DNA of 45,437 nucleotides. Origin: Oribacterium sp. NK2B42. Lineage in GTDB: Bacteria; Bacillota; Clostridia; Lachnospirales; Lachnospiraceae. This document shows, piece by piece, positions 10,422-21,938 of this stretch. The stretch spans positions 1 to 45,437 of the forward strand of contig NZ_AUJX01000035.1 of assembly GCF_000424445.1 (NCBI RefSeq), written 5' to 3'. How positions within the stretch are numbered: the stretch's first letter is position 1; each line of letters starts with the position of its first letter. A program made the translations under genes and the position numbers. The notes under the pieces were generated by a model. The model saw only the letters and a list, made by a program, of their open reading frames with translations, was not told the DNA's origin and did no database searches.

Positions 10422-12128
10422 TCAGGCCAATGTCACCTTCACCTTATGATCGTACCATTTTCCTTTTGCTCCAAGGAGGGCAAGGTCGAATTCCTGATCC
10501 AGTTCCTCAACCGGGATATCGAAGCCATATACCTCTTCCTTTGTTCCGTCGGAATAGGTAACTTCATCCGTAGTCGGCTCTAATATCTTTGACCCTGCTT
10601 TTTCTGCATCCTTTGCAAGTCCCGGGAAAAGCTTCACTATGTTCTTTGAAGCAAGACTTACATGGATAGTCATCCTCCCGTCTTCCACGGTAAGTTTTCC
10701 GAGGTCTGCATTAGCCTCGTTTACATGGAACATGCTGCTGTCGGTGGTGAACTTTGCATCATATTCTCCGTCCTCAAGGGCAGTTACTTCTTCTGTGGTT
10801 CTTTTGGTTCCGGCTGATTTCTGTGAAGCCTTGATGGCAGCACCGGAATGCGCGGCATAAACCTCCTGAACTTCCTTTATGCTGCCAAGACCTGCGATCT
10901 GTGTGTCCACGCTGTCAAATGCTTCCGAAGCAAGGAACATGCTCTTCCAGGAGTCATCCTCGTCCCCGGCCATGTCATTGTTTGCGTGATCTCCGGCAAC
11001 CACCATTAAAGGTCTCAAAATAACCTTCCTGTAGCCGGCATCCTTAATTTTTTCGATAACCGCCTCACAGGCTGTATCCTCAGGTTCACCCTCAACAGTT
11101 CCGATGAAAACATTGGCATATCCAAGCTTTTCCATCTGTGCCTGCATCTGGCTGTAGGTCACCTTTGCCGTATGAGAGGTTCCGTGGCCCATAAATACAA
11201 AAGCAGTACCGTCTTTTTCTGCATCCTTTATATCCTTGAAGCCGGCGGTTTTGACCGCTTCCTCAGTGATCGCCTCAGCTACAGACTCCTTGTCTTCATT
11301 TACGGTATCCGCATCTTTTCCTACCTCTCCAAGAAGAGGCTCGGCAACGGTGACACTCTCGAACATATCTTCATAATCTGCAAGTATGTCGCAGAGCTCG
11401 TCATACTCCGCACCATGCATGAGATGTGTAGGCTGAACCACAAGATGCTTTACCTTGTTTTCAACTGCGCGTTCCAGAGCCTGCTCAACATTATCGATCT
11501 TTTCCTCATCACGGGCCTGTATATGGTTAATGATGGTCTGTGCTGTGAAAGCTCTTCTTACTGACCAGTCCGGGAATTCCTCTGCAAGATACTTTTCGAT
11601 ACCGCCAATGTCTTCTGCTCTGCTGTTATTGAAGGAAGTACCAAAGCTTACCACCAGAAGTTCGTTTTCGCCAATGTCGTCCGCATTCAAAGGATCGTCC
11701 TTTGAAGCATCGCCGGTGTCTCTTCCGAAATAATCGGGATCCGCATGTTCACCTTCAACCATTTCCTTCTGCTCATCTGTAAGGGCGTCCCAGGCTTCCT
11801 TTGCCTCCCTGCACTGATCATCCGTGTCATCGTTTCTTTCCTGAACATAGATGGCATCAATGAGTTCCGCTACATGATCGGCTTTTGCCTTATCATCCTC
11901 TCCGGAAGCTTCACCTGATGCAGCGGTGGTTTCTTCTTTTGCTTCCCCTGATGCAGCAGTGGTTTCTTCCTTTGCTCCCCCTGTTGTTTCTTCAGCCGTT
12001 TCAGTTTCCTGAACCGCAGCCGCTTCAGTTTCTGCACCTGCTTCAGGTACACTTGTGCTTTCGCAGGCTGCCATCGTGACTGATGTAAGCACTGCAGCTA
12101 AAAGAACAGTAAGTTTTCTCTTTTTCAT
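10422..12128 (-). CDS. Surface lipoprotein with CbiK-type cobalt/iron chelatase domain
   Basis: 568 residues. A lipoprotein signal ends at Cys22 (TMAAC). A Glu/Thr/Ala-rich linker with an 11-residue tandem repeat (about 30-80) and a short helical spacer (DALTDEQKEMV) follow. The class II chelatase fold spans about 155-435. The expected metal/tetrapyrrole His residues are present: H235 in PTHLMHGAEYD and H315 in FMGHGTSH. CbiK enzymes insert cobalt (or iron) into sirohydrochlorin; the Desulfovibrio periplasmic form is a known exported member. Residues about 450-568 form an added beta-rich domain (DGEYDAKF ... GFDIPV) that resembles the N-terminal domain of the binding lipoprotein encoded upstream in the same module. 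GGGGAGG precedes the ATG by 4 bases. Likely job: handling metal or heme-like tetrapyrroles at the cell surface for the adjacent importer; direction of the reaction is unknown. Confidence 0.87.
   Translation of the reverse strand: MKKRKLTVLLAAVLTSVTMAACESTSVPEAGAETEAAAVQETETAEETTGGAKEETTAASGEAKEETTAASGEASGEDDKAKADHVAELIDAIYVQERNDDTDDQCREAKEAWDALTDEQKEMVEGEHADPDYFGRDTGDASKDDPLNADDIGENELLVVSFGTSFNNSRAEDIGGIEKYLAEEFPDWSVRRAFTAQTIINHIQARDEEKIDNVEQALERAVENKVKHLVVQPTHLMHGAEYDELCDILADYEDMFESVTVAEPLLGEVGKDADTVNEDKESVAEAITEEAVKTAGFKDIKDAEKDGTAFVFMGHGTSHTAKVTYSQMQAQMEKLGYANVFIGTVEGEPEDTACEAVIEKIKDAGYRKVILRPLMVVAGDHANNDMAGDEDDSWKSMFLASEAFDSVDTQIAGLGSIKEVQEVYAAHSGAAIKASQKSAGTKRTTEEVTALEDGEYDAKFTTDSSMFHVNEANADLGKLTVEDGRMTIHVSLASKNIVKLFPGLAKDAEKAGSKILEPTTDEVTYSDGTKEEVYGFDIPVEELDQEFDLALLGAKGKWYDHKVKVTLA
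11909..11974. repeat. Two 33-bp in-frame tandem repeats in the chelatase linker
   Basis: Two 33-base units (11909-11941 and 11942-11974) encode the doubled AKEETTAASGE segment. They only lengthen the acidic linker between the lipid anchor and the chelatase domain, and copy number could vary between strains. Confidence 0.8.
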
Positions 12129-12237
12129 TTTTCCTCCCCAAATTAACTATTTATCAAATCGTCCGCTGCACTTCTCAGGTATCCCCCTGTACTATATACT
12201 GCAGCCAACGACAGGTAAAACGACATTGATATCCTAT

Positions 12238-13146
12238 TTATAACACTAATCTCATGGATTGCAACAACAGTTTAAACTGCTCATCCGTAATGCCGTAAAG
12301 CTCCTTAAGCACATCCGGCTGAAGCACTTCCTCCGGTTTCCCTGCCCTGCTGATGCCCTCTTCCCCTACGCATATGACCTTATCCGCAATAACTCTGGCA
12401 AGCTCAAATTCATGAAGTGACATGACTATGGTGATATTCTTTTCACTTCTCAACTTTTTAAGTATCTCTATCAGTTCAAGCTTGTGGCGAATGTCGAGAT
12501 AAGACATGGGCTCATCCAGTATCAGTATCTTCGGCTCCTGGGCAAGAGCTCTTCCTATAAGTATCCTCTGTTTCTGCCCGTCGCTGAGCTTCCTGAAGGG
12601 TCTTTCGGCAAGCTCTGAAATTCCCAGAAGCTTTATGATCCCATCCACCACAGCATGATCCTTTTCGTTCAGTATCCCCATTTTTCCTGTGTAAGGATAT
12701 CTTCCGGTTTCGATAATGTCTCTGCCGGTCATATATTCCGGATCGATACGTTCGGTGAGAAGCAGCGACAGAACTTTCGCAAGCTCTGAAGAACCAAATT
12801 TCCTAAGCTCCCGTCCGCTCACATAGACAGCTCCCAAAACCGGTTCAAGCTGCTTTGAGATAGTCTTTAAAATAGTGGACTTCCCGGCTCCGTTTGGTCC
12901 TATCAGGGTAACTATCTCTCCCTTTCCGATTTCAAGATCAATGTTCTCTATGATGGCATCACCCTCATACCCGACGGAAAGTCCGTTGAGCCGGATGATA
13001 TCTTTCATGGCGACATCACTGTCATCCCTGACGGAAAGTCCGTTGGGTCTGATGATATTTTTCATGGCGGCATCACTGTCATCCCCTGCAGAAGATCCCT
13101 TCTGTTTCAGGGCTTTTTTGTCGGTGTAATTTTCAGGCCTTTCCAT
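12238..13146 (-). CDS. ABC transporter ATP-binding protein, FecE/BtuD type
   Basis: 302 residues with Walker A GPNGAGKST, Q-loop region, signature LSDGQKQR, Walker B ILILDEP and the switch His in SLHEFE. It powers import through the FecCD-like permease just upstream. The start ATG overlaps the permease stop by 14 bases and has AGGAGG 4 bases before it, so the odd N-terminus is translated. Before the usual ABC start (IIRLNGLSVGYEG) there are about 45 extra residues made of a duplicated 19-residue segment carrying an internal Met each time. The substrate is not readable from this subunit; the neighbours suggest a metal chelate or tetrapyrrole. Confidence 0.92.
   Translation of the reverse strand: MERPENYTDKKALKQKGSSAGDDSDAAMKNIIRPNGLSVRDDSDVAMKDIIRLNGLSVGYEGDAIIENIDLEIGKGEIVTLIGPNGAGKSTILKTISKQLEPVLGAVYVSGRELRKFGSSELAKVLSLLLTERIDPEYMTGRDIIETGRYPYTGKMGILNEKDHAVVDGIIKLLGISELAERPFRKLSDGQKQRILIGRALAQEPKILILDEPMSYLDIRHKLELIEILKKLRSEKNITIVMSLHEFELARVIADKVICVGEEGISRAGKPEEVLQPDVLKELYGITDEQFKLLLQSMRLVL
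12971..13084. repeat. 57-bp tandem duplication at the start of the ABC ATPase gene
   Basis: Units 12971-13027 and 13028-13084 are both exactly 57 bases and nearly identical, so the frame is kept. They encode two 19-residue copies; the first residues of the ABC domain itself (GLSVGYEGDAII) look like a third, diverged copy of the source segment. Confidence 0.85.
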
Positions 13147-14167
13147 CCAGCCTCCTGTCCATCAGCATAAAAATAACTATCGGCGCTCCAAAAATACTTG
13201 TAACGGTGCTGATATTAAGCTCCGTCGGAGCAAAGGTACATCTTGCAATAAGATCACATAGCATGCAGAAAACCGCACCGCTCATAAAGGATACCGGAAT
13301 CAGTACCACAGGATCCGAGCTTTTAAGCATCTGTTTTGATAGAAACGGAACTGCTATACCCACAAAAGAAACCGGTCCCGCAAAGGCGGTTACACATGCT
13401 GAAAGAACACTTGATAAAAGTATGATGACTATGCGGAAGACCTTAACATTGACACCCATACTTTTTGCATAATTCTCTCCAAGCCGTAGTGCCCCTATGG
13501 GTTTAGATAAAAGAAACGTGATGATGAGGGTAATGCCTATAACCACGGTGGATACAAAAACCCCGTCCCAGCTCATACCGGAAAAGCTTCCCATGGACCA
13601 CCCTCGCAGATTAATGATGTCCTTGTCCTCAGCAAAGGTCAGAAGAAAATCCGTAGCCGCGGAACATATATAGCCTATCATGATGCCGGCCACTAAGAGT
13701 CCCGCTTTATGCCGGACGCTGCCCGAAACAAGAATAATGAATGCTGTTGACAAAAGTGCTCCTGCAAAGGCTGAAAGAATCATGGCAAGCGATGAGCCGG
13801 ATTTTGACATATTTACCCAGAAAATCATATTGAGGGCAACCGTGAATTTGGCTCCTGAAGAGATTCCCAGCACAAAAGGTCCGGCTATGGGGTTTCCGAA
13901 AAAGGTCTGAAGCAGAAACCCGGATACCGCAAGAGCCCCGCCCAGAAGGGCCGCCATGATAACCCTCGGCAGCCTGATGATCCGGATGATCTTCACAACA
14001 TTGGAATCACCGGCTTTACCTGTCAGGGCTTCAAGGATCTCTTTTACCGAACCCGGCACACTGCCTGTTGTAAGGTTGAGTACAAATACGGCAGAAAATG
14101 CCAGGACCAGAAAGATGCCGACACATAGATATCGATGTATTCTTTTTTTAGTGTTATTTTCAATCAT
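13133..14167 (-). CDS. FecCD-family ABC permease
   Basis: 344 residues with about nine to ten membrane helices. Typical FecCD/BtuC features are visible: RLPRVIMAALLGGALAVSG near residue 70, GNPIAGPFVLGISSGA near 95, LLGENYA-type RLGENYAKSMG near 235 and the C-terminal AGPVSFVGIAVPF and APTELNISTVTSIFGAPIVIFML blocks. It forms the channel of an iron-chelate/heme/cobalamin-type importer with the downstream ATPase and the upstream lipoprotein. Only one permease gene is present, so it probably works as a homodimer. No strong ribosome binding site precedes the ATG. Confidence 0.93.
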   Translation of the reverse strand: MIENNTKKRIHRYLCVGIFLVLAFSAVFVLNLTTGSVPGSVKEILEALTGKAGDSNVVKIIRIIRLPRVIMAALLGGALAVSGFLLQTFFGNPIAGPFVLGISSGAKFTVALNMIFWVNMSKSGSSLAMILSAFAGALLSTAFIILVSGSVRHKAGLLVAGIMIGYICSAATDFLLTFAEDKDIINLRGWSMGSFSGMSWDGVFVSTVVIGITLIITFLLSKPIGALRLGENYAKSMGVNVKVFRIVIILLSSVLSACVTAFAGPVSFVGIAVPFLSKQMLKSSDPVVLIPVSFMSGAVFCMLCDLIARCTFAPTELNISTVTSIFGAPIVIFMLMDRRLDGKA

Positions 14168-14241
14168 TATTATTTAGCCCACTTTTAAGAACTATATAAA
14201 TAAACAACTCTTTTCACTTATGGCACTTATTATCCGGTGCA

Positions 14242-15873
14242 TTAACTGCATTTCACAAGAAAAGACGCAGCTTCATCTTTGCCGGTCAAAATGATGTTTA
14301 TGTCCTTCGCGAATTCGGAAACCCTGTCGGTGGACTGATAGAATTTCCTGTCAATAAGGTAAACATTACCCTCCTTTACCGCTTTGAAATCCTTTAGCAG
14401 CGGGCTTTTGTTCAGAAGGTCGCTGAGGGTTTTTACATCCGTATCGATGTTTGTGTTGTAGATGAGAAAATCTGCTTCGGAAGCTTTTGAATAGAACTCC
14501 TCCATAGATATGCCCGTACTTCCGGAGTCGATGGAATCGAAAACATTGATGCCGCCGCCGTCTCTTATCATGGCAGAAACATAATCTCCCGAATCCCGGA
14601 CTATGGCGAGCCCCCGGGTGTTGAAATGGAAAAAGGCAACGGTTTTATCCGTCTTTTCGAAGCCGGTATCGGCCCCTGACCGCAACACTTCATCCTTGAA
14701 GAATGCTTCCGCCTTTTCCTCTTCATCAAGTAAGGCTCCGTACAAACGTATCCATTCTGTGCGCCCCAGAGCACTAGTTTCATAGCTGGACCAGTCTGTA
14801 AAAACCGGAATTCCCAAAGCCTCAAGCTGCTCCTTCACATTGGGCTCATGAAGGATCATGGTGGATTCTATAGCCAGTCCACAGTTTCCGGTAAGCAACA
14901 TTTCATAATCCGGCGCACTGTACTTTCCCGCAAACTTCATCCTTCCGGATTCCAATGCTTCCTTTGGTGCTTCAATGCTCCAGCCTGACACATCTGTGCC
15001 GGTAAAACCGATGGTATCCATAGCTCCCATGGCATCAAAAAGTGACATGGCACTCGTTGCGGCAAGATATATGTTGCTGACAGGTTTCCTGATAACAGTG
15101 GTGTTTTCCGGAAGCTTGCCCGGTTCTTCGGCTCCCTCCGGAATTACAAGATACCGGCTTCCATCTATAACAGAAATAAGCTTTACATCATTTTCATAAT
15201 AATGAACCGCAAATCCCTTTGCATACTTCAGCTCCATAGAATGATCATATTTCAGGCCTTCTATGGTGGAAATATCCTTTGTAAGATTTAAAGACAGATC
15301 ATTGATCTGATCTTTTACTCCGGCACTACTAGCAGGGTTATTTGTCGCTCCCGATATTTCATCGAGAGAAATGTATATCGTGTAGCTAATTTCATGAGGT
15401 GAGGACATAGCCGTGGTGCAGCCAATGAGCGTCATCTCCTCATCAAGCTTCACGGGGACCTTGAAAGTCGATGTTTTCTCCGTATATTCTCCGGTGATCT
15501 TTAAATCATCAACACGGATATACTCATAATTCGGGCTTGAAAAAGCTATGGAAGCTATCGCCTCTCCGCCTGAAAGCTCAACCTCTTCACAGGATATCGT
15601 CACCCTGCCGCTGCCCCCGGAATAATTGAAGACTGCAGGCACATATATGCCATCAAGCTTTGAACCTTCGCCGGCATATGTTGACATTATCTGAACAGCT
15701 TCCAATGACGTTTCTATATAGGCTTCTGTTTCGGATTTTTCGTTTACAGATTCCTGTCTTAACGTTTCTTCGGAAAATTCCTGCGAAGATTCCCGCATGG
15801 GATTTGATATTCCACAGGAAAGAAGAAAGAAAAATGCCAGTAACAATACCGGCAGAGATATTTTAAAAGTCAT
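14242..15873 (-). CDS. Binding lipoprotein of the importer with extra N-terminal beta domain
   Basis: 543 residues. The lipoprotein signal ends at Cys20 (FLLSC). Residues about 72-172 form an extra domain (LDGIYVPAVFNYSGGSGRV ... FKVPVKLDEEM ... YTIYISL). A Peripla_BP_2-type binding domain follows from about 215 to the end, with FDAMGAMDTIGFTG and EALGIPVF blocks typical of ferric-chelate/cobalamin binding proteins. The usual family length is about 300-380, so the N-terminal domain is an addition. Its plan (DGxY start, beta strands, SSxNY, hydrophobic tail) matches the C-terminal domain of the chelatase lipoprotein. First gene of the module, 74 bases before the permease. Confidence 0.88.
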   Translation of the reverse strand: MTFKISLPVLLLAFFFLLSCGISNPMRESSQEFSEETLRQESVNEKSETEAYIETSLEAVQIMSTYAGEGSKLDGIYVPAVFNYSGGSGRVTISCEEVELSGGEAIASIAFSSPNYEYIRVDDLKITGEYTEKTSTFKVPVKLDEEMTLIGCTTAMSSPHEISYTIYISLDEISGATNNPASSAGVKDQINDLSLNLTKDISTIEGLKYDHSMELKYAKGFAVHYYENDVKLISVIDGSRYLVIPEGAEEPGKLPENTTVIRKPVSNIYLAATSAMSLFDAMGAMDTIGFTGTDVSGWSIEAPKEALESGRMKFAGKYSAPDYEMLLTGNCGLAIESTMILHEPNVKEQLEALGIPVFTDWSSYETSALGRTEWIRLYGALLDEEEKAEAFFKDEVLRSGADTGFEKTDKTVAFFHFNTRGLAIVRDSGDYVSAMIRDGGGINVFDSIDSGSTGISMEEFYSKASEADFLIYNTNIDTDVKTLSDLLNKSPLLKDFKAVKEGNVYLIDRKFYQSTDRVSEFAKDINIILTGKDEAASFLVKCS

Positions 15874-16036: not shown

Positions 16037-16825
16037 TCAGAGTAATGACTTTAGTACCTCAAGTACGCCATCTTCCCAATACGGCTTTATCACTTCATCT
16101 GCAACAGCCTTAAGCTCATCTCTCGCATTTCCGACAGCGTAGCTGTGTCCGGCACTTTTTAGCATTTCTATGTCATTAATATTATCTCCGAAGGCATAAG
16201 TATCCACTTTACCGATGCCGAGATACTCCTGAAGCCACTTTAATGCAGTCCCCTTGCTTGCATTCTTCTCCACACAATCCATCCAGGCACTTCCGGCTGA
16301 AGCAATCTTCGCTTTATCCTTCCATTTCGGAGTAAAGCCTTCCCTGCATGCCTCCTCGCAGTCAACACCATGAAAAACCGAAAGTTTGATAACCGGATCC
16401 TTTATATCATCGATATCCTTCATAGGAGTCATTTCAAACCCATAGGACTCAGTAAGCCAGCGATACATCTCACTATCCGGATCAAGTGCATATCCTGAAG
16501 CTCCTGTTGATATAAAACCATCACACCCCGGAATCTTCATTGCATCCCTGAACAACCCCTTCCAGAGACTTTCTTCCATAGGAAAGTTTTTGATGATCTT
16601 CCCATCCTTCCATATGCTGGTTCCGCCATCGCAAATAAAATATAATTCATTCACAAATGAACCTAAAAGCTTCGAAGCACTGGAGAAAGACCTGCCGCTG
16701 GAAATCACCACCTGAATCCCTTTATCCAGTAATTCCTTTACCACTTCGAAATACTCCGGATTGATATCCAAAGTCCCATCCTTCACCAAAGTTCCATCAA
16801 CATCCGAAATCACAATTTTATTCAT
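16037..16825 (-). CDS. Cof-type HAD-IIB hydrolase
   Basis: 262 residues. Motif I is SDVDGT (Asp8, Asp10), motif II VISSGRS near 42, and motif IV FGDNINDIEML near 217, the standard HAD phosphatase set with a type IIB cap between. The substrate is likely a small phosphorylated metabolite; the family is broad. Its start has a weak GAGG. It follows the repeat array and appears to be transcribed alone. Confidence 0.9.
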   Translation of the reverse strand: MNKIVISDVDGTLVKDGTLDINPEYFEVVKELLDKGIQVVISSGRSFSSASKLLGSFVNELYFICDGGTSIWKDGKIIKNFPMEESLWKGLFRDAMKIPGCDGFISTGASGYALDPDSEMYRWLTESYGFEMTPMKDIDDIKDPVIKLSVFHGVDCEEACREGFTPKWKDKAKIASAGSAWMDCVEKNASKGTALKWLQEYLGIGKVDTYAFGDNINDIEMLKSAGHSYAVGNARDELKAVADEVIKPYWEDGVLEVLKSLL

Positions 16826-17763: not shown

Positions 17764-17990
17764 ATCGGCAGAAATTATTTTTACTATAACAAAAGATTTT
17801 TTATTTTTACAAAATTCATAAAAAATAATAGTAGCTATTCAAAAATATAATTTTATATATCTCTTCTTTAGTGTAAAATGTTTCTCAATTGCAGTTTCTT
17901 CGGATGACAATATTTTATCATTCCTATTAACTTTGCAATTTGATCCGTATCACGGATTTTATCATTCGTTTTACGTCTAAGGGGGATACT

Positions 17991-19079
17991 ATGGAAAACT
18001 TCAAATCATTTCTGAAACGTAAGGATATCGAGATTTCAGTGAAACGTTATCTTATCGATGCTCTGGGTGCCATGGCACCGGGACTTTTTGCTTCACTTCT
18101 TATAGGAACCATCATTAACACACTTGGTTCACAGCTCCATATTCCGTTTCTGACCAACACAGTGGCAACTATCGCCGGAACGAAATACACCGTCGGCGGA
18201 CTTGCTTCCGCAATGAGCGGTCCGGCAATGGCTGTTGCCATCGGTTATGCACTTCACTGCCCGCCATTGGTTCTGTTTTCTCTCATAACTGTAGGCTTCG
18301 CTTCCAATGCTTTGGGCGGTGCAGGCGGACCTCTCGCGGTACTTTTTGTGGCAATCTTCGCAGCTGAGGCAGGTAAAGCCATATCAAAGGAGACAAAGAT
18401 AGACATTCTTGTAACTCCTCTTCTGACTATAGGTATAGGCATTTTCCTCTCTGCTCTGTGGGCCCCGGCACTTGGTAAAGCAGCCATGAAAACAGGAACT
18501 CTCATCATGTGGGCTACCGCTCAGCAGCCTTTCATAATGGGGATTTTAGTGTCTGTTATCGTGGGCATAGCATTGACACTTCCTATTTCTTCCGCTGCCA
18601 TATGTGCGGCTTTAAGCCTTACGGGACTTGCGGGAGGTGCCGCAGTTGCAGGCTGCTGTGCCCAGATGGTAGGCTTTGCATTTATGAGTTATAAAGAAAA
18701 CGGCGTGGGCGGTCTCGTATCCCAGGGTATAGGAACCTCCATGCTTCAGATGGGAAACATAGTTAAGAATCCACGTATATGGATCGCACCTATACTCTGT
18801 TCCGCCATCACAGGACCTCTCGCAACCTGCGTTTTCAAAATGCAGATGAACGGAACTCCTATTTCATCCGGTATGGGAACCTGCGGATTTGTCGGACAGA
18901 TCGGTGTTTACACAGGCTGGCTTAATGACATTCAGGCCGGTACAAAGGCTGCTATCACAGCAAATGACTGGATTGCTTTATTTCTGATATGCTTCATCCT
19001 TCCCGCAGTTTTGTGCCCGGTATTCAATATGTTCTTTACAAAACTTGGCTGGGTGAACCCCGGAGATATGAAGCTTTAA
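17991..19079 (+). CDS. PTS system EIIC-type permease (PTS_EIIC_2 group), stand-alone
   Basis: 362 residues from the ATG preceded by AAGGGGGA; upstream in-frame codons lack a site. There are about nine to ten membrane helices rich in Gly/Ala with conserved-looking NALGGAGGPLAVLFV, LPISSAAICAALSLTGLAGGAAVAGC and NGTPISSGMGTCGFVGQIG blocks. It resembles EIIC permeases that lack attached EIIA or EIIB domains. No EIIA, EIIB or sugar enzyme is adjacent, so the phosphate donor must be encoded elsewhere and the substrate is unknown. It ends in a terminator, so it is monocistronic. Confidence 0.83.
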   Translation: MENFKSFLKRKDIEISVKRYLIDALGAMAPGLFASLLIGTIINTLGSQLHIPFLTNTVATIAGTKYTVGGLASAMSGPAMAVAIGYALHCPPLVLFSLITVGFASNALGGAGGPLAVLFVAIFAAEAGKAISKETKIDILVTPLLTIGIGIFLSALWAPALGKAAMKTGTLIMWATAQQPFIMGILVSVIVGIALTLPISSAAICAALSLTGLAGGAAVAGCCAQMVGFAFMSYKENGVGGLVSQGIGTSMLQMGNIVKNPRIWIAPILCSAITGPLATCVFKMQMNGTPISSGMGTCGFVGQIGVYTGWLNDIQAGTKAAITANDWIALFLICFILPAVLCPVFNMFFTKLGWVNPGDMKL

Positions 19080-20954: not shown

Positions 20955-21938
20955 ATGGTTAAACTTAATGATTATTTGTACGAAGGCTATACTGTTCTGG
21001 AAATTCTGCATAAGTACAGTGCAGATCTGAAAAAAGATGCTCTTTTGACCCGGAATCAGCTGGATATCGCTCATTGTAATTTTTTACTGGAGCTGTCGGA
21101 AATCCTTGAACATAATGAATTCCTTACGTCTGAATCCCAGCGTATCCAGGACTTCTACATATATTTGTCCGAAAAATATCCTTATTTATCCTTTAATTTA
21201 AAGGGACGCATCAAATCCATATTAAGAGCCGAAAAGAAATTCAACGGCTACATCGTGCAGTTTATTTATGATTATTATCTTGAGCACAATGAATATCCAC
21301 CTATTTCGGCACTTAAGGCAAAGGTGAACAATTTCCGGGATCTTATCGCCTACAGGATAGTCATATCCCTTCCTCCAAGCAATCGTTCGGAAGGACAGGA
21401 TCTCGAGACAGAAGAACTGAAGTATCTGTATGAAATGGCTAATGTTCTGCCGGAGTTTCTTGAAGAACGCGGTTTCACCGCAGAGCTTGCCAATCTGAAA
21501 CAGCCAAACACTTCTCCCTTACTGTCCGGTGCAGTCATGCCCTATTACAGGGATTATATAGTTAATCCACGTTCCTCAGGATATCGCTCATTGCATATTA
21601 CCTTTTATGACAGAATTTCCAGAAATTTCACAGAAGTTCAGCTAAGAACAAAGGATATGGATGACTATGCCGAGATAGGTACGGCAAACCATTATTTTTA
21701 CGAGAAAAAGCAGGATAATCCTCTGGTTCAGAGGAACACTATTCCTGTTGGCGAAAACCTTTACTTTGACGAAGCCTATAACCGCATCATCGAACTCAGA
21801 AACTTAGATTTATCCAAAGTTAATGTCAACATGTTCAACGCTTTGGATAACAATACCATGAATGACGGCTGCGGTCTTTATAAAGGCAGGCTCATCCTGC
21901 CCTATGAACATCTTGCAAAAATCCGGGGACCACTATGA
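20955..21938 (+). CDS. Stand-alone RelA/SpoT-type (p)ppGpp synthetase-like protein
   Basis: 327 residues. The synthetase fold is readable at about 80-255: GRIKSILRAEKKF (83-96), FRDLIAYRIVI with Asp129, NPRSSGYRSLH (204-214, the G-loop), EVQLRT (227-232, catalytic Glu) and TANHYFYEK. These enzymes move pyrophosphate from ATP to GTP or GDP to make the starvation alarmone. There is no N-terminal HD hydrolase and no TGS or ACT domain, so it is a small alarmone synthetase type, longer than RelP/RelQ (about 210 residues), with an 80-residue helical N-terminus and a C-terminal tail of its own. An insertion sits between the Asp and G-loop motifs. No Shine-Dalgarno is visible before the ATG. It is followed by two hairpin terminators. 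Confidence 0.85.
   Translation: MVKLNDYLYEGYTVLEILHKYSADLKKDALLTRNQLDIAHCNFLLELSEILEHNEFLTSESQRIQDFYIYLSEKYPYLSFNLKGRIKSILRAEKKFNGYIVQFIYDYYLEHNEYPPISALKAKVNNFRDLIAYRIVISLPPSNRSEGQDLETEELKYLYEMANVLPEFLEERGFTAELANLKQPNTSPLLSGAVMPYYRDYIVNPRSSGYRSLHITFYDRISRNFTEVQLRTKDMDDYAEIGTANHYFYEKKQDNPLVQRNTIPVGENLYFDEAYNRIIELRNLDLSKVNVNMFNALDNNTMNDGCGLYKGRLILPYEHLAKIRGPL

Follow-up and report, generated by a model that had tools for sequence, protein, structure and literature searches.

We identified a four-gene block in Oribacterium sp. NK2B42, a gut-type bacterium, that places a CbiK-type chelatase carrying a surface-lipoprotein signal beside a small-molecule importer. Both the chelatase and the importer's binding lipoprotein carry an added domain predicted to resemble the NEAT domains that bind heme. 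In relatives, the setting of this block is cobalamin (vitamin B12) synthesis rather than heme, and we propose, with modest confidence, that the block captures a sirohydrochlorin-type tetrapyrrole at the surface, loads it with cobalt outside the membrane, and imports it for B12 production. The window analyzed here is a 45,437-nucleotide stretch of contig NZ_AUJX01000035.1 (assembly GCF_000424445.1).

The four-gene block and its added domains

All four genes lie on the minus strand, in the transcription order binding protein (14242–15873), FecCD permease (13133–14167), ATPase (12238–13146), and lipoprotein CbiK (10422–12128). The binding protein is a 543-residue putative lipoprotein with Cys20 and a Peripla_BP_2 region at residues 272–508 (PF01497, E 5.5e-30). 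Its best NCBIfam match is the heme-binding protein IsdE, but only weakly (E 1.7e-5, 24 bits against a cut-off of 299). The permease is of the FecCD/BtuC type (PF01032, E 1.5e-75), with BtuC as its best NCBIfam match, below the cut-off. The ATPase is of the FecE/BtuD type (ABC_tran). Together, these have the components of a FecBCD/BtuFCD ABC importer.

The chelatase has 568 residues, comprising a signal with Cys22, a low-complexity linker, a CbiK core at residues 157–432 (10833–11660, minus strand), and a C-terminal added domain. The core matches PF06180 with an E value of 3.7e-69, although it scores only 179 bits against the NCBIfam equivalog cut-off of 400 for sirohydrochlorin cobaltochelatase. 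In an alignment with solved structures, counted by hand, Glu241, His315, and His381 align with Glu89, His145, and His207 of Salmonella CbiK, which are the catalytic residues. These three motifs are present in 95 of 110 ORFs. The lipoprotein-type signals of the chelatase and the binding protein were recognized by eye. Using a regular expression of our own, we found a lipobox-type signal in 101 of 109 CbiK ORFs of this type, some from the same genomes, and in 0 of 8 cytosolic CbiKs. A cytosolic location for this type was rejected on these counts and on the occurrence of fusions to binding proteins.

The added domains are residues ~441–568 of the chelatase (Cdom; 10425–10808, minus strand) and residues ~61–180 of the binding protein (Ndom; 15334–15693, minus strand). 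Neither hits Pfam or NCBIfam at E < 1. However, an hhalign comparison of the two family alignments (80 and 53 rows) gave a probability of 95.5, an E value of 1.5e-8, and a score of 52.1. One hundred column-shuffled versions reached at most 29.2 and the reversed profile reached 13.0, so a chance resemblance was rejected. The observation in the first-pass annotation, that a lipoprotein chelatase with both expected His residues sits beside a FecE/FecCD importer and shares an added domain with its binding lipoprotein, is therefore confirmed.

AlphaFold models of both domains match NEAT domains, which have a beta-sandwich fold, best. The Cdom model (pLDDT 90.3) returned NEAT proteins as its first 10 Foldseek hits, and the Ndom model (pLDDT 80.7, with a core of about 90 or more) returned NEAT proteins as its first 35; Cdom best E 4.5e-4, Ndom best E 2.7e-3 with probability 1.00. 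The best structural matches include IsdX1, IsdX2, Hbp2, and IsdH. Profile comparison with the NEAT family (PF05031) gave probabilities of 92 and 87. The NEAT model also matches several Cdom and Ndom members below its cut-off, but gave no hit at the gathering score in the window proteins or in the organism's own genome. By eye, the heme-ligand motif of NEAT domains, YDHxY, whose Tyr ligands lie on the last hairpin, reads YDHKV in Cdom, with the second Tyr replaced (WYDHK at CbiK residues 558–562), and was not seen in Ndom, where the binding protein has TTAMSSPHEISY.

Cobalamin context in relatives

We next examined the neighborhood of the block in related genomes. The chelatase, both domains, binding protein, permease, and ATPase are found on one strand in 48 of 61 loci with at least 8.5 kb downstream. 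The first-pass annotation had named differing folds of the two domains, or rare adjacency of the four genes in relatives, as grounds for refutation, and neither was observed.

A cobalamin riboswitch (RF00174) precedes the chelatase gene in 26 of 28 loci scanned; two of these loci (L038 and L157) appear to be the same contig, so at most 27 distinct genomes are represented. The riboswitch lies 24–256 nt before the ORF in the 20 cases measured. In locus L041, which shares the window's gene order, it lies 24 nt before cbiK. Loci L033 and L151 lack it, as does the window itself. The block heads or is interleaved with cbi/cob operons in stretches chosen for linkage, and 34 of 61 loci not chosen for linkage hold a cob/cbi gene. 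No cob/cbi gene was found on the window's own 45-kb contig.

In a 200-genome family sample, Cdom occurs in 73 genomes and Ndom in 76, together in 73. CbiD is present in 72 of the 73 Cdom genomes and in 48 of the 127 others. In 49 of the 120 CbiD-positive genomes, every CbiK found lies within 5 kb of a NEAT-like domain (lipoprotein-only genomes), while 19 of 120 carry both kinds of CbiK. These counts include corrections by hand. Genome G186 was dropped from the lipoprotein-only class because its CbiK hit lies in a 796-residue frame shared with CbiD, and genomes G058 and G121 were counted as carrying both kinds because their 70–73% identical CbiK lies apart from Cdom. Two fragment rows (second pieces in genomes G130 and G063) were left out. 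A separate CbiX as a hidden chelatase was also rejected. At E 1e-3, read by eye, the CbiX model matched only inside CbiK ORFs, except in genome G084, which has no CbiD match.

HemC was found in 13 of the 49 lipoprotein-only genomes, with no match in the other 36, against 30 of 31 tested genomes with other CbiKs only (Fisher 1e-10, and 2e-8 at 95% completeness or more). The genomes are related, so these p values are nominal. A CbiF tree of 41 rows needs five changes of the lipoprotein label, at least three of them forced by well-supported branches, which led us to reject a single origin for the whole pattern. The label is still strongly clustered, and so the genomes are not independent.

CbiL, which is needed right after cobalt insertion, is in only 2 of 16 lipoprotein-type operons of HemC-negative genomes in the stretches as fetched, against 17 of 20 stretches around CbiD in genomes with cytosolic CbiK. 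The former count leaves out genomes G158, where the operon runs off its contig, and G023, which also show no CbiL in what was fetched; G169 and G122 were fetched only in part. Within the fetched stretches, this pattern speaks against the reading proposed below. We did not accept it as proof of late-stage import, because genome G024 (locus L196) has other CbiKs, HemC, and the same operon order without CbiL, and loci L006 and L079 have CbiL just upstream of the lipoprotein CbiK.

Proposed function and alternative readings

Our best explanation is that the block is a surface tetrapyrrole-loading and import system serving cobalamin synthesis. In this view, NEAT-like domains on the lipoproteins would catch external sirohydrochlorin or siroheme, and the lipoprotein CbiK core would insert cobalt, or exchange another metal for it, outside the membrane. 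The binding protein and BtuC/FecCD-type importer would then bring cobalt-sirohydrochlorin inside for the cbi enzymes. The protein families, lipoprotein signals, domain homology, and NEAT-like fold are supported by sequence and models, as are, in relatives, B12-riboswitch control, operon linkage, sole-CbiK status, and frequent absence of HemC. The ligand, the metal, cobalt insertion and its direction, the hand-over between domains, and the transported species are inferred. The window's own genome does not show the salvage trait of corrin-ring genes without HemC; it has HemC-CobA-HemD plus a CysG-N protein that might insert cobalt. Here, the system would supplement de novo synthesis or replace cytosolic cobalt insertion rather than rescue a missing pathway.

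The interpretation in the first-pass annotation is only partly supported. It had inferred a surface system capturing a tetrapyrrole or metal, with the chelatase loading, unloading, or relaying it to the importer through a common ligand or docking domain, and had drawn an analogy to heme-binding chelatase relatives and HmuS. The homology and NEAT-like nature of the domains, the surface-lipoprotein signal of the chelatase, and the association of the genes all hold, and capture of a tetrapyrrole or metal survives in a more specific form. Loading (cobalt insertion) is favored over unloading, as an inference without biochemical support. The cobalamin setting was not foreseen, and the heme and HmuS analogy is therefore not the best reading.

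In its boldest form, which remains possible but tentative, many gut Lachnospiraceae would make vitamin B12 from a preformed ring taken from their surroundings. A surface chelatase would load sirohydrochlorin, or strip siroheme and reload it, with cobalt outside the membrane, NEAT-like domains would pass it on, and a dedicated importer would deliver cobalt-sirohydrochlorin, so that the first committed step of B12 synthesis happens outside the cell. Salvage of early tetrapyrrole precursors was predicted for cobamide producers lacking early ring-synthesis genes, mostly Firmicutes (PMC6461909). ALA dependence was tested in that work, but in the parts we consulted, no uptake system for later rings and no external chelation system is named. 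Our literature searches, judged largely on titles and the beginnings of abstracts, likewise returned no paper describing a surface chelatase for B12 precursor salvage. The block is a concrete candidate, with regulation, genes, and residues specified. If the reading is right, it would place cobalt insertion outside the cell, extend the NEAT fold beyond heme, give the lipoprotein CbiK family (including FetB/IhtB) a possible second function, and imply ring sharing among gut microbes.

The strongest alternative, though unlikely, is a heme or iron acquisition system of the IhtB/FetB kind, in which NEAT-like domains catch heme, the chelatase core removes iron or swaps the metal, and the importer brings in heme, porphyrin, or iron. 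The NEAT-like fold, the relationship to FetB, the weak IsdE match, and the lack of a riboswitch in the window favor this reading. Furthermore, NEAT domains with known ligands bind heme and are not known to bind sirohydrochlorin. However, the riboswitches, the linkage to cbi operons, and the near-universal CbiD in Cdom genomes speak against it, as does the HemC pattern, and protoporphyrin-type rings cannot become corrin.

Slightly less likely still is an uptake system for finished or nearly finished corrinoids (BtuFCD type) or for cobalt, with the chelatase and NEAT-like domains acting as binding or hand-over proteins. B12 riboswitches commonly control corrinoid uptake, and the permease best matches BtuC. 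This reading does not explain the conserved chelatase residues, the absence of another CbiK in 49 genomes, the missing HemC with CbiD retained, or the NEAT-like domains.

Least likely is external cobalt insertion into the cell's own exported sirohydrochlorin as a cobalt-scavenging carrier, which would fit genomes such as the window's, where the ring pathway is present yet the only CbiK match is the lipoprotein and no CbiX matched, but would need an exporter for which we have no candidate and does not sit well with the 36 of 49 lipoprotein-only genomes without a HemC match.

Related chelatase systems

The closest solved relative of the chelatase by sequence is FetB of P. gingivalis (PDB 9b86, E 3e-36), described in a review as exchanging metals in porphyrins (PMC13402209), which also speaks for the main reading. 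FetB and IhtB are one protein, and IhtB is a lipoprotein CbiK homologue in the IhtABCDE locus, which has a binding protein, permease, and ATPase (PMC10913741), as does the block described here. P. gingivalis was also noted to lack the steps to precorrin-2 (PMC6461909). However, a Pfam scan found no TonB-dependent receptor among the four genes of the block and the two flanking ORFs. The Oribacterium block also has added NEAT-like domains, and in relatives it is riboswitch-controlled and joined to cbi operons. IhtB is discussed as a heme/iron protein and FetB as a Mn-porphyrin chelatase.

The periplasmic CbiK of Desulfovibrio vulgaris (PDB 2xvx, E 1.2e-26) is likewise an exported CbiK-type chelatase, with an unsettled physiological role, and is not known to carry a NEAT-like domain. 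A rumen metagenome study (PMC12654859), citing a paper on the two D. vulgaris CbiKs, states that cobaltochelatase both transports sirohydrochlorin and adds cobalt. Salmonella CbiK (PDB 1qgo) belongs to the same family and has the conserved His/His/Glu, but is a cytosolic enzyme of the cobalamin pathway without a signal or added domain.

The chelatase, the importer, and their added domains

We first examined the four minus-strand genes at 10422-15873, which encode a binding lipoprotein, a FecCD permease, a FecE-type ATPase, and a CbiK-type lipoprotein. The chelatase core matches PF06180 with an E value of 3.7e-69. A sequence search of the PDB indicates that its closest solved relative is FetB (PDB 9b86, E 3e-36), followed by Salmonella CbiK (3e-32) and the D. 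vulgaris enzyme (PDB 2xvx, 1.2e-26). The binding protein has no PDB sequence match at E 1e-3. His315, His381, and Glu241 fall on the catalytic residues of the Salmonella enzyme, and a motif check found all three motifs in 95 of 110 related ORFs, with the two others besides MGHG present in all 110. Using a regular expression of our own, lipobox-type signals were found in 101 of 109 CbiK ORFs, as well as in 21 of 26 Cdom-first ORFs, 37 of 61 Ndom-first ORFs, and 33 of 37 binding-protein ORFs (some ORFs come from the same genomes), against 0 of 8 cytosolic CbiKs. Here, Cdom denotes the added C-terminal domain of the chelatase and Ndom the added domain of the binding protein. In six loci, the ORFs are 768–1,090 residues long with CbiK matches far stronger than usual (E near 1e-250 instead of 1e-130), and they are probably tandem chelatase cores (L051:867-4139, L062:7618-10491, L069, L071, L076, and L081).

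Next, we compared the two added domains. Alignments of 80 Cdom and 53 Ndom sequences, drawn from the window plus a set of loci chosen by similarity, compare at P 95.5 and E 1.5e-8, and the best of 100 column-shuffled versions scored 29.2 against 52.1. AlphaFold gives beta-rich models with a mean pLDDT of 90.3 for Cdom and 80.7 for Ndom. In a Foldseek search against the PDB, the first 10 hits of Cdom and the first 35 hits of Ndom are NEAT proteins, with best E values of 4.5e-4 and 2.7e-3 and TM scores of 0.52 and 0.60 normalized to the query, respectively. The PDB sequence search with the Cdom profile also places NEAT domains first, although weakly (E 0.026), while the Ndom profile found nothing convincing (a single hit at E 0.33, not NEAT). 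Against 15 Lachnospiraceae NEAT stretches, the profiles score P 92 (53 columns) and P 87 (108 columns). The Pfam NEAT model matches at E 1e-3 in 30 of 200 genomes of the family and exceeds its cut-off in 15; some of the weaker hits are Cdom or Ndom members, and there is no match in the window genome. Therefore, both are divergent NEAT-like domains that lie outside Pfam's current family limit.

The two domains occur in several arrangements. Of 61 loci with at least 8.5 kb downstream, all have Cdom, 54 have Ndom, and 48 have the full set of core, both domains, binding protein, permease, and ATPase on one strand. The domains sit on the chelatase, on the binding protein, in small separate proteins, or in a Cdom-Ndom pair, and in one of the 61 loci, Cdom, Ndom, and binding protein are one chain. 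This is what partners in one pathway look like. In 200 genomes of the family, Cdom is in 73 and Ndom in 76, with 73 shared, although some of these matches are weak ones in very long proteins. In a sample of the phylum, Cdom is in 19 of 398. Long frames of 1,291 and 1,821 residues in two genomes of the family sample (G118:C7:46462-48624 and G102:C1:2650935-2652182) hold two or three Cdom-like repeats and one Ndom-like repeat and look like larger surface capture proteins.

Association with cobalamin genes in related genomes

CbiD is in 72 of 73 Cdom genomes and in 48 of 127 others. In stretches that were retrieved because CbiD was near, the block lies at the head of, or interleaved with, a cobalamin operon; for example, locus L151 reads CobQ, CbiC, CbiD, CbiF, permease, ATPase, CbiG, CbiH, CbiJET, and CbiA. 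A 139-residue ORF common in these operons matches only the second half of CobU, as in locus L147 (7510-7926), where it lies near a 180-residue CobU. In the loci chosen by similarity, 34 of 61 hold a cob/cbi gene, and 30 of 68 genomes with a CbiK near a NEAT-like domain have CbiD within 25 kb.

We then scanned for structured RNAs. A cobalamin riboswitch lies upstream of the lipoprotein chelatase in 26 of 28 loci (7 of 7, 8 of 8, 5 of 6 chelatase loci, and 6 of 7 in four sets) and is missing in L151 and L033. Two of the loci, L038 and L157, lie on contigs of the same size with the same riboswitch score and are probably one genome. The riboswitch is also present where no cob gene is in the locus (L005, L013, L031, and L054). 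Locus L041 has the window's gene order and carries the riboswitch in the gap before cbiK; in the window, that gap is 109 bases, and no riboswitch is found even at a permissive threshold. Locus L153 has two tandem fluoride riboswitches upstream of the block (1735-1942).

We also asked which genomes could make the ring themselves. The 120 CbiD-positive genomes were classed by the distance of each CbiK from a NEAT-like domain, which gave 50 lipoprotein-only, 17 both, 45 other-only, and 8 none by script, and 49, 19, 44, and 8 after three hand corrections. HemC is in 13 of 49 lipoprotein-only genomes and in 30 of 31 tested other-only genomes, one of these being a weak match (genome G008). At a completeness of 95% or more, the counts are 8 of 31 against 26 of 27. 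The genomes are related, which limits this comparison; a CbiF tree needs five changes of the lipoprotein label, at least three of them forced. CbiL, as a further limit, is missing from 14 of 16 lipoprotein-type operons of HemC-negative genomes in the stretches retrieved, two of which were retrieved only in part, but from only 3 of 20 cytosolic-type stretches; these counts do not extend to the whole genomes. In all, 36 of 49 genomes whose only CbiK is the surface kind keep CbiD but show no HemC and could not make uroporphyrinogen III by the known route. They should need an imported ring, and the block is the obvious candidate. Genome G102 carries two lipoprotein-type CbiKs within about 10 kb of hemC and cobA-hemD, with a third CbiK nearby (L164:6000-18400).

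Candidate mechanism and alternatives

The sequences and models support a surface location, a chelatase family with conserved residues, NEAT-like domains shared by enzyme and importer, and the importer type, as well as riboswitch control and operon linkage in relatives. What we infer beyond this is that the ligand is sirohydrochlorin-type, as only rings with uroporphyrinogen side chains can become corrin, that the metal inserted is cobalt, and that the product is carried by the binding protein; no biochemistry on these proteins was seen in the literature that we consulted. Heme capture is the main rival, and the binding protein's weak match to IsdE speaks for it. Uptake of corrinoids and external loading of exported sirohydrochlorin are other possibilities.

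A lipoprotein CbiK homologue in an importer locus is known from P. gingivalis (PMC10913741), and salvage of tetrapyrrole precursors is a known prediction (PMC6461909). The NEAT-like domains, the riboswitch control, and the tie between surface chelatase and missing HemC were not seen in the search listings and text passages that we examined. A rumen metagenome paper states in passing that cobaltochelatase transports sirohydrochlorin (PMC12654859).

The window's own genome and flanking genes

The window's own genome has one CbiK (the lipoprotein), no CbiX match, one Cdom, and one Ndom, with CbiD, F, G, H, J, and E-T on another contig. There (L165:4830-16921), the cbi genes follow a RepM-like replication gene and an rpoA copy, as on a second replicon, and an unknown lipoprotein-like ORF of 394 residues lies between cbiG and cbiH. 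The genome also has a HemC-CobA-HemD fusion beside siroheme-decarboxylase and NirJ/AhbC/AhbD-type genes, a CysG-N protein, and an NrfA-like cytochrome. Therefore, it can probably make sirohydrochlorin and siroheme itself, and the salvage reading applies to it less strongly than to its relatives. A HEARO RNA lies near its hemC genes (L182:17281-17502). Neighbors of the block in the window include a Cof-type HAD phosphatase upstream of the block (16037-16825), a PTS EIIC-type protein (17940-19079), and a protein with a RelA/SpoT region (20955-21938).
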